Source of the DNA: Desulfovibrio sp. TomC
GTDB lineage: Bacteria > Desulfobacterota > Desulfovibrionia > Desulfovibrionales > Desulfovibrionaceae
Assembly (NCBI RefSeq): GCF_000801335.2
Contig: NZ_JSEH01000011.1
Location: 1-64,000, forward strand
DNA: 64,000 nt
Direction of reading: 5' to 3'
A program made the position numbers and the translations under genes. The notes under the pieces are model-generated. The model was not told where the DNA came from and searched no databases. It saw only the letters and a program-made list of their open reading frames with translations. Positions 1,267-45,148 of this stretch are shown piece by piece. How positions within the stretch are numbered: position 1 is the first letter of the stretch; the number at the start of each line of letters is the position of its first letter.

Positions 1267-2033
1267 GCCAGTCTCTTCTGACCACCCGCATGCTGGAGGC
1301 GCTCTCCGCCGGGCGCAAGGCGCTCATTCCCTTCCTGCCGGGCGGCTTTCCGGACAAGGAGCGGTTTTTCGACGAGCTGGCGGCGCTTGATGCCGGCGGA
1401 GCCGACATCATCGAGATCGGCGTGCCCTTTTCCGACCCCGTGGCTGACGGGCCGGTGGTGGAGCAGGCCTCGCTTGATTGTTTGCTTAACGGCACCTGCC
1501 TGTCCTGGCTGCTCCACGAACTGGAGAAGCGCAAAGGCCAGTACCGGGCCGGACTCGTGCTCATGGGCTATTACAACCCGTTTTTGCAATACGGCCTGGA
1601 CCAGCTGGCCGAGGACGCCGCCGCCGCCGGGGTGTCCGGGTTTATTGTGCCCGACGTGCCCCTGGAGGAATCCGGTCCCTTGCGCGCCGCTTTGGACAAG
1701 CACAACCTGGACCTGATCCCGCTGGTTGGACTCAACACCTCCGAGGAACGGCTGGCCGCCTATGCCAAGGACGCGCGCGGCTACGTCTACTTTGTCTCGG
1801 TGCTCGGCACCACCGGCATGCGCGAATCCCTGCCGACCGAGATCAAGGAGCGCCTGACCGCCGTGCGCCGGCTTTTTAAGGTGCCCGTGGCCCTGGGCTT
1901 TGGCATCAAATCCCCGGACCAGTTGACCGCCTTCGGCGATCTCGTAGACGGTGTGGTTTTCGGTTCGGCCCTTATCGCCCACATCAAAGCCGGCGGCACG
2001 GCCGCCGAATTCATGCTCCGCTGGCGCAGCTGA
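1263..2033 (+). CDS. trpA: Tryptophan synthase alpha chain
   Basis: Cleaves indole-3-glycerol phosphate to indole, which is channelled to TrpB. The product is 256 residues, a TIM barrel of usual length. The catalytic acid pair is visible: E51 in EIGVPFSDP and D62 in ADGP. The glycine-rich phosphate site is seen near GFGIKSPDQ. The start ATG at 1263 overlaps the trpB stop by four bases. An open frame continues upstream to 1089, but that part is an out-of-frame shadow of trpB. It is the last gene of the operon; 137 nt separate it from the next gene. Confidence 0.97.
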
Positions 2034-40226: not shown

Positions 40227-41786
40227 CTACTTGGCGATGCCGACGGCCCGGCGTTCGCGGATGACCGTGACCCGGATCTGGCCGGGATAGGTCAGGTTGT
40301 CCTCAATGCGTTTGGCGATGTCCTTGCAGAGGATAAACGTCTTGTCGTCGTCGACGTTTTCCGAATCCACCATGACCCGGACTTCACGGCCGGCCTGGAT
40401 GGCGTAGGCCTTGGACACGCCCTCGAAATCAAGAGCCAGATTCTCAAGCTCTTCCAGACGCTTGACGTAGCTCTCCAGCAGTTCCTTGCGCGCGCCGGGA
40501 CGGGCTCCGGACAGGCTGTCGGCGGCCTGGACCAGGGTGGCCAGGATGGACTTGGGCGGCACGTCCTCATGGTGGGCCATGATGGCGTGGAGAATGTCGC
40601 CGGATTCGCCGAACTTCTTGGCCAGATCCGCGCCGATGACGGCATGGGGGCCTTCGATTTCGTGGTCCACGGCCTTGCCGATGTCGTGGAGCAGCCCGGC
40701 GCGTTTGGCCCGCTTGATGTCCACGCCCAGTTCGGCGGCCATGATGCCGGCCAGGGAGGCCACTTCCAGGGAGTGCTGGAGCACGTTTTGAGAATAGCTG
40801 GTCCGGTATTGCAGCTGGCCTAAAAGGCGCACGAGCTCGGGATGGATGCCGTGGACGCCGGAGTCGAAGGTGGCCTGCTCGCCGATCTCGCGGATCTTGA
40901 CGTCGAGTTCCTGCTCGCACTTCTTGACGATGTCTTCGATGCGGGCGGGGTGGATGCGGCCATCGGTGATGAGGCGCTCCAGGGCCATCTTGGCGATCTG
41001 GCGCTTGAGCGGCGAAAAGGCTGAGAGGATGACGGTTTCCGGGGTGTCGTCGATGATGAGATCGACGCCGGTGGCGGCTTCCAGGGCGCGGATGTTGCGA
41101 CCTTCGCGGCCGATGATGCGGCCCTTCATTTCTTCGGAAGGCAGGGCCACGGCGGTCACGGTCTGTTCGCCCACGAAATCGCCGGCATAGCGCTGGATGG
41201 CCAGGGCCAGGATCTTCTTGCCGCTTTTATCTGCGGTTTCCTTGGCTTCCATCTCGATCTGGCGGACCATGCGGGCGGCTTCGTGGCGGGTCTTGGACTC
41301 GATCTCGTCCATGAGCCGCTTTTTGGCCTCTTCCATGGTCAGGCCGGACACTTCCTGGAGGCGCTTGTCGTGTTCGTCGGCCAGGCGCGAGAGTTCCTCG
41401 CTCTTTTCCTCGAGGTCGCGCTCCTTGGCGGTCAGGCGCTTTTCAACGGCGAGCAGCTCGGTTTCCTTGACAACAACCAGCTCCTGCTTTTCCTCCAGGC
41501 GTTCGCGGCGTTTGCGCACCTGTTCTTCCCGGTCGTCCAGGGACTGGGTCTTGTCGCGGAACTCTTTTTCCAGTTCCTGTTTTTGCCGGTACAGATCGTC
41601 CTGGGCAGCCAGGACAACTTCTTTCTTGTGGGCCGAGGCCTCTTTACGGGCTTCGTCGAGAATCCGCTCGGCCAGGGTTTTGGCCTCGTTGAGCGTTTTC
41701 TGGGAAATCCATTTATCGAGGTAATAGCCGGCCGGCACGCCCAGGCCGATGCCCACGAGGCCCATGAAGATGGTCGAAAATTCCAT
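40227..41786 (-). CDS. rny: Ribonuclease Y
   Basis: A membrane-anchored endoribonuclease of 519 residues that starts mRNA decay. An N-terminal helix ([19 protein letters not shown]) is followed by a long coiled coil (about 25-200), a KH domain with [15 protein letters not shown], and an HD domain with [12 protein letters not shown]. Full length. ATG 41786 is used, preceded by GGGAG; longer in-frame extension into the 6S RNA region is not real. The 6S RNA gene lies just upstream on the same strand, then zapA. The pairing rny-ymdB nearby is common in bacteria. Confidence 0.96.
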
Positions 41787-41947
41787 GGCTTCTCCCGAAG
41801 CGGGGAGAACACGGGCAAAGCCCAAGGGCAAGGGATCGGACGAATCACAATCCGGAAGATGCATGGCCCAGGCCGCGTGAGGTGTGGCAAAAGTCTGGTT
41901 GGGGATGCCGCTTGGGACAACAGCGGCACTCCGCATTCCAGTTTATA

Positions 41948-42130
41948 GCAAAGCCCCAGAGAGCCGTGTCGTCAGTTCTTTTGAACCTTGGCAACCAAGG
42001 CGGACGCCGCTGTTTGACCTTCAGGCCACCCGGTCGAAGCCGGGCACGCACACCAGCCACGCGTCGCGGCATCCAATTTTTGAGTATCGGCTCAAAAACA
42101 AACGAACGATCACGCACACCCCAGGGAACT
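41948..42130 (-). ncRNA. ssrS: 6S RNA
   Basis: Regulatory RNA that mimics an open promoter and binds sigma-70 RNA polymerase. On the minus strand the sequence keeps the diagnostic GAGCCGATA (42093-42085), as in E. coli 6S, a GUGGCUGGUGUGC stretch, an apical hairpin with arms CCCGG/CCGGG (42044-42029), a second hairpin CCTTGG-TTG-CCAAGG (42000-41986) and an ACGACAC 3' strand. The ends pair as GGUGUGCGU... with ...ACGACAC to close the rod. It sits directly between zapA and rny, the usual place after zapA. The ends are estimates from promoter and pairing. A 7-bp hairpin at 41906-41928 may be its terminator. Confidence 0.85.
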
Positions 42131-42132
42131 TT

Positions 42133-42161
42133 TTATCAAGGCTCGCCGCCACGCGGCGCAA
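42133..42161 (-). promoter_or_regulatory. Promoter of the 6S RNA gene
   Basis: On the minus strand TTGCGC (42161-42156), a 17-bp spacer and TGATAA (42138-42133). It lies just after the zapA stop and predicts a start at about 42126-42130, which matches the start of the closing stem of the RNA. Confidence 0.65.
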
Positions 42162-42165
42162 CCGA

Positions 42166-42420
42166 TCAATCTATCTTATGCAGCAGATTGTCCACCCGAT
42201 CATGCAGATGGTCAAGTTGCTGGTTCGACATCAACATATCGTCAGCCAGACCTAAAGCGACAAAGGCCAGCAATTTCTCCTTGCCGAGCGTTTTCCCGCC
42301 CGCTTTAAGCAAGTTATATCGTTGCTCCACCAATTCCTTGGCGGCACTTACGCGCTCCGGTCCGGCATCTGTCTTAAACGACAGCTCAAGGCCCATTATG
42401 GACAGTGAATAACTGGGCAT
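42166..42420 (-). CDS. zapA: Cell division protein ZapA
   Basis: A small FtsZ-ring stabiliser of 84 residues. It shows the ZapA layout: an N-terminal strand-rich part (SLSIMGLELSFKTDAGPERV) followed by long helices ending in QQLDHLHDRVDNLLHK, the dimer and tetramer coiled coil. Length agrees with short ZapA types. It is 45 nt downstream of a ZapB-like coiled-coil gene and 36 nt before the 6S RNA start, the same neighbourhood as in many proteobacteria. Confidence 0.92.
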   Translation of the reverse strand: MPSYSLSIMGLELSFKTDAGPERVSAAKELVEQRYNLLKAGGKTLGKEKLLAFVALGLADDMLMSNQQLDHLHDRVDNLLHKID

Positions 42421-42465
42421 CGAAGGACCGAAGATTCCCCGCCAGTCTCAAGACCGGCCGGAGTG

Positions 42466-42645
42466 TTAGGGTTCAAGCTCCTCCTGAAGCTTTTCCAGAA
42501 GACCGTCTATGCGCTCGGCGACGGCCTTTTTCTCTTCGGCATAACGGGCCACTTCGGCCCGAAGCGCCGCATTTTCTTCTTCCAGAGTCTTTTTACGCGC
42601 AACGAGTTGTTCGACCCGTTGTTCGAGGGCGTCGAAAATGTCCAT
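42466..42645 (-). CDS. ZapB-like short coiled-coil protein
   Basis: A 59-residue, almost wholly helical protein: MDIFDALEQRVEQLVARKK, then a heptad-rich core (LEEENAALRAEVARYAEEKK) and a C-terminal LLEKLQEELEP. The heptads predict a continuous dimeric coiled coil, like ZapB, the ZapA partner at the division ring. The start has AGGAAG 4 nt upstream (caggaagccATG). Coupled position directly upstream of zapA on the same strand supports the role. It is short and similarity to ZapB is structural, so the name is not certain. Confidence 0.8.
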   Translation of the reverse strand: MDIFDALEQRVEQLVARKKTLEEENAALRAEVARYAEEKKAVAERIDGLLEKLQEELEP

Positions 42646-42689
42646 GGCTTCCTGCTAGCCTGATTTTCGTCGGAAAGCAAGCCGGGGCC

Positions 42690-44051
42690 TCATTTTCGGG
42701 CTTTGGTCACCTGCCGGCCCCGGCCCAGGGCCAACATCCCGTCCGCTACATCGGAAGTAATCACGGAACCGGCCCCGACAAGGGCGTCGTTGCCGATGGT
42801 CACCGGCGCAACCAGGGCGGAGTTGGAACCGATGAAGGCCCGCTCGCCAATGACCGTCTGGTGCTTGTGCACTCCGTCGTAATTGCAGGTAATGGTGCCG
42901 GCTCCGATATTGGACCCGGCCCCGATCACGGCGTCGCCCAGATAGGTCAGATGATTGGCCTTGGCTCCGGGACCAAGCACGGATTTCTTCATCTCGACGA
43001 AATTGCCGACCCGCGCCCGTTCTTCCATGACCGCCCCCGGGCGCAGCCGGGCATAGGGGCCGACCTGGCAGCCGGCGTCCACCCGGGCCTTTTCCAGATG
43101 GCAAAAGGAATGGATCACGACGTCTTCGCCAACCTCGGCGTCAAGGAGCACGCCGTGGGAGGCCAGCGTCGCTCCGGCCTTGATGCGGGTTTCACCGGAG
43201 AGTTCCAACGGCCCGCACAGCTCCACGCCCGGGGCAATGGCGACCTCCGGACCGATGCGCACGCTGTCGGCCGCCCGCACCACCACCCCGGCGTCGATAT
43301 GGGCGTCGACAATGCGCCGGCGTAAAATTTCTTCGGCCCCGACCAGTTCCCGCGGGCTGTTGATGCCAAGATAGGCCTCGTCCGCCCCCCGGTTGACCGG
43401 CAGCACCCGCAGCCCGGCGGCCTGGGCCAGCCCGATCAGGTCGGTGATGTAGTATTCGCCGCTCTTGTTGTCGTTAGACAGCTCGGCCAGAAGCGGCGCG
43501 ACAACGGCCAGACGCACAAGGTAGACCCCGGCGTTGATTTCGCCCGTGGCCGGTCCGTGGAGCGCCGGGTCAAAATCCTTGGCCTCGACAATCCGTACCG
43601 CGTCCCCCTGGCGCACCACCCGGCCGTAGGCGGCAGGATCGGGCAGCTCGATGGAGACAAAGGCGACGTCGGCCTTGGCAGCCAGGGCGGCGTCACGAAA
43701 CCGTTGCAGACTCTCGGCCGTCACCAGCGGCGCATCGCCGTTGACCACCAGCACATGGTCAAGGCCGGCGGCGGCCAGAACCGGCAGGGCCGTGGCCAGG
43801 GCATGGCCGGTGCCGAGCTGTTCGGTCTGGCGCACGAAGCGGCCGGCCAGTTCCGGAAAGACGGCTTCCACGGACTCGGCCCGGTGGCCGACCACCGTAT
43901 AGACCGCTTGGCCGCACAAAATCGCCAGGGCCTGCTCGACATACCAGAGCATGGGTTTGCCAAGCAGGGTTTTGAGCACCTTGGGGGCGTCGCTTTTCAT
44001 ACGGGTGCCCTTGCCGGCGGCCAGGACCAATGCTCCGATACGCTGTGCCAT
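42690..44051 (-). CDS. glmU: Bifunctional GlmU (UDP-GlcNAc pyrophosphorylase/GlcN-1-P acetyltransferase)
   Basis: Makes UDP-N-acetylglucosamine in two steps for peptidoglycan and lipopolysaccharide. The 453 residues comprise an N-terminal uridyltransferase domain with LVLAAGKGTRMKS (residues 9-21), and a C-terminal left-handed beta-helix acetyltransferase with hexapeptide repeats (for example KANHLTYLGDAVIGAGSNIG and GAGTITCNYDG, which includes the catalytic region). Full length. It is co-oriented with atpC2 upstream (88 nt) and the ZapB-like gene downstream (44 nt). Confidence 0.97.
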   Translation of the reverse strand: MAQRIGALVLAAGKGTRMKSDAPKVLKTLLGKPMLWYVEQALAILCGQAVYTVVGHRAESVEAVFPELAGRFVRQTEQLGTGHALATALPVLAAAGLDHVLVVNGDAPLVTAESLQRFRDAALAAKADVAFVSIELPDPAAYGRVVRQGDAVRIVEAKDFDPALHGPATGEINAGVYLVRLAVVAPLLAELSNDNKSGEYYITDLIGLAQAAGLRVLPVNRGADEAYLGINSPRELVGAEEILRRRIVDAHIDAGVVVRAADSVRIGPEVAIAPGVELCGPLELSGETRIKAGATLASHGVLLDAEVGEDVVIHSFCHLEKARVDAGCQVGPYARLRPGAVMEERARVGNFVEMKKSVLGPGAKANHLTYLGDAVIGAGSNIGAGTITCNYDGVHKHQTVIGERAFIGSNSALVAPVTIGNDALVGAGSVITSDVADGMLALGRGRQVTKARK

Positions 44052-44139: not shown

Positions 44140-44580
44140 CTAGCGCCCGCCGGACGGGGCCGAGCCGGGCAACCGGGCCACCTGGTGCAGTTTCATACGG
44201 GCCATGGCCCGCTGCAGGGCCGCTTTGGCCCGGGTATAATCCACGGCCTCCTGCCGCTCGACCGCCAATCGGGCTTCGGCCCGATCCCTGGCTTTACGCG
44301 CCCGGTCCAAATCAATCTCTTCAGGCAGTTCAGCCGCTTCAGCCAAAATCAACACCTTTTCCGGCGACACATCGGCAAAGCCGCCGCTGACAAACACGTA
44401 CTCTGTTTTGCCGGCCACGCGGTAGCCAAACGATCCAATGCTCAGGGCGGTCAGAAAGGGAACGTGCAACGGCAGGGCGGTAAATTCGCCGGCCACGCCT
44501 GTGGCCGTGACCGATTCAACGGTCTTGGCCAGCACCAGCCGGTCCGGGGTGACAATCTCAAGGGCAAAGGTCCGGGCCAT
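44140..44580 (-). CDS. Second ATP synthase epsilon subunit (paralogue)
   Basis: A 146-residue protein that aligns along its length with the epsilon subunit encoded just upstream; both share LEIVTPD, the GGFADVS/GGFAEVS motif and a helical tail ([19 protein letters not shown]). Epsilon inhibits and couples F1. The Asp-x-x-Arg-Ala ATP-binding-like motif is kept, so the protein looks functional. AAGGA lies 8 nt before ATG 44580. A strong terminator separates it from atpC, so its expression would need its own promoter or read-through. Two epsilon genes in tandem are unusual; which one assembles with F1 cannot be told. Confidence 0.88.
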
Positions 44581-44667
44581 AGTGGATCCTTGGCAAAGGG
44601 TTTCACGGACTGCTTCCGGGGTGCTACCAGAAACACCCCGGGTCCGACAATGCAGACCAGGACGCAT

Positions 44668-44722: not shown

Positions 44723-45148
44723 TTAGTGCGTCGAAGCGGCAATGGTCCCGGCGTTTTCGCGCACGCGCATGCGGTAGAACGCACGCTGCATGGCGGCCTG
44801 GGCCCGGGCGAAGTCAACCTTGTCGCGTTCACGCTCGACGCGCTGTTTGGCCCGATCCTGGGCCTTGCGGGCGCGCTCGATGTCGATGTCCTCGGGGCGT
44901 TCGGCAACCTCGGCCAGAATGGTGACCTTGTTCCCGGACACTTCGGCAAACCCGCCGGCAATGAAGACGTAGTGCGCCTTCCCGTCGAGCTTGTACATCA
45001 GGCTGCCGATGCCAAGGGCCGACAGAAACGGGATGTGGTTTGCCATGATGCCGAATTCACCGAGCAGACCCGGAGCGCCCACGTAGTCAACATCCTGGGA
45101 CAAGACAAGCTTGTCCGGGGTGACGATTTCAAGGCGGAGTTGGGCCAT
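44723..45148 (-). CDS. atpC: ATP synthase F1 epsilon subunit
   Basis: A 141-residue subunit of the F1 stalk. The N-terminal beta-sandwich ([20 protein letters not shown]) and C-terminal helical hairpin ([19 protein letters not shown]) are complete. It acts as an inhibitor of ATP hydrolysis and part of the rotor. It is the last gene of the atp operon: 5 nt after atpD and closed by a strong terminator. A diverged paralogue lies just beyond the terminator. Confidence 0.95.

Follow-up and report, generated by a model that had tools for sequence, protein, structure and literature searches.

The element between zapA and rny on the minus strand of the window, by which we mean the whole 64-kb stretch of DNA that was analysed, is almost certainly the single, ordinary gene for 6S RNA (SsrS) in a sulfate reducer resembling Solidesulfovibrio, set in a glmU-zapB-zapA-ssrS-rny run; the source genus is by inference Solidesulfovibrio. 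The analysis establishes the gene, its covarying structure, the number of copies and the order of the genes around it. 6S RNA, a small RNA, serves RNA polymerase as a decoy promoter, and members of the class are abundant, stable RNAs of about 180-200 nt that increase in stationary phase. When the window was compared with Rfam 15, the sole match at gathering thresholds was 6S RNA (RF00013), which scores 89.5 bits at 41949-42130 (minus strand) against a cut-off of 46.4 (E 2.1e-16); it covers model positions 1-187 of 187, i.e. the full length, and the matched element is 182 nt long. An earlier note on this DNA had placed a 6S RNA at 41948-42161 and proposed the minus-strand RF00013 comparison; that match bears out the identity and all but the outer end of the range, as the 31 nt beyond 42130 lie outside it. 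The hallmark 6S sequence which the note had invoked is likewise there, as GAGCCGATA, read on the minus strand from 42093 to 42085; judging from its E. coli counterpart, we take this site to be where the product RNA starts. The predicted fold is more stable than all of 200 dinucleotide shuffles (z -3.63), and a search of the own genome found no second 6S copy. The gene resembles RF00013 members in score, length, rod structure and single copy number. The gene and its neighbours are as follows.

41949..42130, minus strand: 6S RNA (ssrS); RF00013, 89.5 bits, full length, with covariation in 57 relatives
42085..42093, minus strand: GAGCCGATA motif, presumed product-RNA start; from the sequence, aligned in the RF00013 match
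42166..42420, minus strand: zapA; PF05164, 43.7 bits
42466..42645, minus strand: zapB-like gene; PF06005, 36.6 bits against 31.5
40227..41786, minus strand: rny (RNase Y); TIGR03319, 751.1 bits

The 6S gene lies 35 nt past the zapA stop codon and 162 nt ahead of rny, all on the minus strand, with the zapB-like gene and glmU further upstream of zapA. This placement was compared across a set of 59 related genomes, own included, of which 57 carry 6S in one copy each and thus provide the 57 order loci; 13 of these loci, own included, belong to the genus and are called genus members below, and the other relatives number 44. The assemblies of the two genomes that returned no 6S match (G007 and G031) have a completeness of 89% and 74%. 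At every one of the 57 order loci, zapA stands upstream and rny downstream of 6S on one strand, while the zapA-6S gap ranges from -21 to 417 nt and the 6S-rny gap, measured to the likely rny start, from 97 to 749 nt. The 6S gene is well explained, because it is placed where its relatives have theirs. Among eight order loci with long 6S-rny gaps, five hold reading frames of at least 110 aa in the gap, none of them fau-like by eye, and the fau gene of the own genome is on a different contig from 6S.

Beyond the order, a phylum draw of 118 genomes gave a 6S match in at least 75, above the cut-off in at least 73. The count of 75 of 118 is a lower bound, as the whole-genome scan used stricter filters and two zapA loci from genomes scored without 6S do hold RF00013 matches. 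Eighteen genomes of that kind were queried and 16 had zapA, which gave 16 loci for inspection; two of them carry 6S between zapA and rny, at 1224-1406 on the minus strand of locus L112 (63.4 bits) and at 1759-1942 on the plus strand of L110 (57.5 bits). A third locus, L109, has a stretch ahead of rny that overlaps the zapA end and may be a divergent 6S, though its score is weak (1282-1464, minus strand; 15.3 bits, E 0.0015 with our own model) and it is absent from the Rfam results. A similar candidate in L105 was rejected as a chance-like match (8.1 bits, E 0.21, 47 nt), also absent from the Rfam results. The zapA-rny gap of L103 contains an apparent fau-like reading frame by eye, and no 6S was found in that gap. 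Among the phylum loci with 6S, the best-scoring 30 were inspected: rny is downstream on the 6S strand in all 30, zapA is recognised by our own profile in 18, and fau (PF01812) lies between 6S and rny in nine of the 16 examined for it.

The zapA-ssrS order, which the earlier note had likened to proteobacterial practice, is thus confirmed by the 57 order loci and by the zapA-ssrS-fau locus of E. coli K-12, where zapA precedes ssrS on one strand at a distance of 41 nt, whereas the gene after ssrS is fau there and rny here. The sections of PMC7641849 available to us describe ZapB-ZapA-SsrS-(FAU1)-EVE arrays in beta- and gamma-proteobacteria, which share the order zapB, zapA, 6S with our locus but continue with EVE instead of rny; the own locus is this common layout with rny in the place of EVE. 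The main text of that paper mentions neither deltaproteobacteria nor RNase Y. For Oleidesulfovibrio alaskensis G20, likewise a sulfate reducer with a single 6S RNA found computationally, the accessible part of PMC11124144 gives a prediction without experiment, and zapA is absent from its main text. In the portion of the open-licence PMC literature covered, we found neither an experimental study of 6S in sulfate reducers nor a paper on the 6S-rny gene order.

The window holds another feature, two tandem atpC genes for ATP synthase subunit epsilon (44140-44667 and 44723-45148, minus strand), the products of which are 57% identical over 129 residues. Two atpC matches were obtained in 14 of 14 genus genomes searched and one in 17 of 17 other order genomes searched, hence this duplication appears to be characteristic of the genus. 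One TAG is present in each of five atpC-matched stretches, four of them in the genus.

An alignment of the 57 6S RNAs, 56 of them distinct, was used for the analysis of covariation. Covariation backs the rod, which consists of a closing stem, a central bubble and an apical stem: the canonical Rfam structure is paired in 82.0% of cells, compared with 72.7% in shuffles and 40.4-51.4% when the structure is slid along the alignment, and its covariation score is 0.329, where shuffles give 0.171 and slid positions no more than 0.130. Thirty-eight of the 51 canonical pairs changed on both sides among the 57 sequences. The notion that the gene is a decayed remnant, neither made nor used any more, has next to no likelihood in our view, given the full-length RF00013 match well above the cut-off, the single copy in 13 of 14 genus genomes searched, and the paired changes retained across the order. 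Within the canonical rod, the inner part of helix P2, in which GAGCC pairs with GGUUC, is paired in 93.8% of cells across the order and the outer part in just 66.1%, and plain folding of the own 6S sequence yields no P2. The elements around the central bubble are the following.

42089..42099, minus strand: helix P2, 5' strand; Rfam structure on the own sequence
41977..41987, minus strand: helix P2, 3' strand; Rfam structure on the own sequence
42077..42098, minus strand: 5' central-bubble hairpin, overlapping P2, found in the genus; folding
41986..42000, minus strand: 3' central-bubble hairpin, overlapping P2; folding and covariation

The newest detail of the finding is that the free 6S RNA of this genus is predicted to favour the two central-bubble hairpins over P2, and this predicted preference sets it apart from the RF00013 family. 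The computed probability of P2 is 0-0.08 in all 13 genus members, that of the 3' hairpin is at least 0.94 in all 13, and forcing P2 costs 2.7-4.7 kcal/mol, while the same program places the GAGC of GAGCC in P2 at about 0.86 for E. coli 6S. Two G columns belong to both P2 and the 3' hairpin, which therefore exclude each other. Across the order, 85.1% of the cells of the 3' hairpin are paired, compared with 69.6% in shuffles, and 49 cells are changed on both sides, where shuffles give 18.4 and slid positions no more than 18, although two of its five measures, the number of pairs changed on both sides and the number of pair types, are not above shuffles, being reached by 204 and 138 of 500, respectively. 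As for the 5' hairpin, the segment UUUUUGAGCCGAUACUCAAAAA can form it in the genus, taking in part of GAGCC. Its stem is predicted with 8-11 pairs in the genus, 11 of them in 11 of the 13 members, and a stem of at least 8 pairs occurs in 6 of the 44 other relatives. Shuffle rates, which cover 9 of the 57 loci, show the own stem of 9 pairs to be matched by 9.1% of shuffles and the 11-pair stem of locus L015 by 0.2%. Order-wide it is paired in 58.7% of cells compared with 56.0% in shuffles, of which 4 of 500 are as high, and it shows almost no covariation, the other four measures being not above shuffles. Within the genus, 153 of 182 alignment columns are invariant, so the 22 invariant columns of 24 in the 5' hairpin represent no clear excess, and selection on this hairpin was rejected as unsupported, with neither covariation nor a clear excess of invariance in its favour.

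According to the sections of PMC8876501 available to us, a switch of the P2/3'-hairpin kind operates when E. coli 6S leaves the polymerase, and the free 6S-1 RNA of B. subtilis already has a hairpin on the 3' side of its central bubble. Our prediction of this hairpin in the free RNA agrees with 6S-1, whereas the 5' bubble pairing predicted for 6S-1 is weak and unconfirmed by probing in the same sections, and a stem of 8-11 pairs is predicted in our genus. The free 6S of the genus may sit in a released-like fold: P2 would then form only once polymerase had opened two hairpins, and these would power the release; the product-RNA template would be kept in the 5' hairpin, and pRNA synthesis would let the hairpins re-form and eject the polymerase. 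The contrast with E. coli in the computed P2 probabilities speaks for this reading, as does the fact that P2 and the P2-excluding 3' hairpin, although mutually exclusive, both show paired changes across the order, which would be expected of a two-state switch that is kept. Nevertheless we consider it unlikely, since covariation is almost nil for the 5' hairpin and a stem as good as the own one is not rare in shuffles, the 3' hairpin fails to exceed shuffles in two measures, and the genus is too uniform to reveal selection. In addition, the P2 probability is at least 0.5 in 25 of the 44 other relatives and below 0.5 in the remaining 19, which suggests that the folding program may simply undercount P2, and folding programs leave the polymerase out. 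We thus keep to an ordinary 6S RNA, the working of which would follow from E. coli and B. subtilis by analogy. By homology, the RNA would fold as a rod whose central bubble mimics an open promoter, and would bind RNA polymerase with the housekeeping sigma factor as growth slows. The polymerase would then use the 5' bubble as template for a short product RNA that begins at GAGCCGAU, the motif of the E. coli product-RNA start, upon which 6S would be released; product RNAs would begin with AUCGGCUC.

How the RNA is transcribed was considered on both sides of the gene, where three further features are found.

42168..42173, minus strand: TAGATT where zapA ends, putative -10 box of the 6S precursor; conserved ATA codon
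42140..42163, minus strand: hairpin between zapA and 6S, a leader if transcription begins upstream; predicted in 13 of 13 genus members
41942..41947, minus strand: TATAAA directly beyond the 3' end of 6S, putative -10 box for rny; this or CATAAA occurs in 12 of 13 genus members

The earlier note had given 6S its own sigma-70-like promoter, a claim that found no support: the single sigma-70 consensus match, TTGACC-17-GACAAT from 42215 to 42187, falls inside zapA, and shuffles would yield 0.3 such matches. In an alignment judged by eye, just 2 of the 13 genus members, own included, have the whole site, and no conserved -35 was seen by eye upstream of 6S in the 13 members. A better candidate for the 6S promoter than this consensus match may be the zapA tail aagatagattga. 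The zapA end aagATAgat(t)ga is conserved, and its rare ATA codon is present in all 13 genus members, where 0.25 would be expected from glmU and rny; the same ATA recurs in 23 of the 30 other loci having such a codon (of 44), where 3.86 would be expected. Seven genes of the window contain 119 Ile codons, and both ATA codons among them fall in zapA. Against a promoter in the zapA tail, ATA is common elsewhere in zapA (37 of 98 other Ile codons), the distance from the ATA tail to 6S varies, and the codon is retained in two species with 6S as far as 202 and 417 nt away. The zapA tails of the genomes scored without 6S are by eye too divergent in protein for a comparison of one codon. The hairpin between zapA and 6S is predicted in the genus members with differing sequences, at -10.5 to -18.5 kcal/mol. 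The 6S precursor most likely would start within or just after zapA, have this leader hairpin and be trimmed to the mature RNA.

On the downstream side, an intrinsic terminator scan of 41700-42700 found none, compared with 1.2 expected, and terminator-like sites occur in the first 100 nt past 6S at 6 of the 57 order loci and at none of the 13 genus members. Their absence from all 13 makes read-through from 6S into rny possible, and with it the link to RNA decay that the earlier note had raised. The 12 genus members noted above have TATAAA or CATAAA in roughly the same position beyond 6S, and a -10-like match is found in 4.8% of shuffles of the genus stretches and 8.5% of shuffles of all 57 loci; since the genus members are close kin, however, the 12 boxes are not 12 independent events. 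Outside the genus such a box is present at 5 of 44 loci, and it was rejected as an order-wide trait. It is most likely that rny would be reached via read-through, from its own start at the 6S 3' end, or by both. What remains of the 6S-rny link proposed in the earlier note is the gene order, seen at all order loci and at the 30 best-scoring phylum loci. The adjacency looks like inherited gene order rather than a dedicated coupling, because fau intervenes in nine of the 16 phylum loci examined and follows ssrS in E. coli, and because 15 of the 16 loci from genomes scored without 6S also have rny after zapA, so that the order is independent of the RNA.

These observations also bear on the idea that, besides its 6S role, the element acts in cis, with zapA, 6S and rny in one transcript and the making or trimming of 6S setting the level of rny mRNA. 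The lack of terminator-like sites within 100 nt of 6S in the genus and the constant position of rny, downstream on the same strand, would fit such an arrangement, and the sections of PMC7641849 available to us report that E. coli ssrS-fau is a dicistronic transcript processed to 6S. Even so, we regard action in cis as quite unlikely: the boxes past 6S could be a separate rny start, the 6S-rny gap varies over the range given above, fau intervenes in nine of the 16 phylum loci examined, and rny follows zapA in loci that were scored without 6S. An ordinary 6S gene within an inherited gene order is the reading that we prefer.

The analysis adds a well-placed 6S member in sulfate reducers, where the literature found, as far as its accessible sections go, gave prediction without experiment. 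The conserved zapA-6S-rny order is also a simple place to seek missed 6S genes, and the zapA-rny interval is useful for this because two genomes scored without 6S hold an above-cut-off match there. If the genus-specific fold is real, these bacteria would offer a natural variant for testing which central-bubble pairing drives polymerase release.
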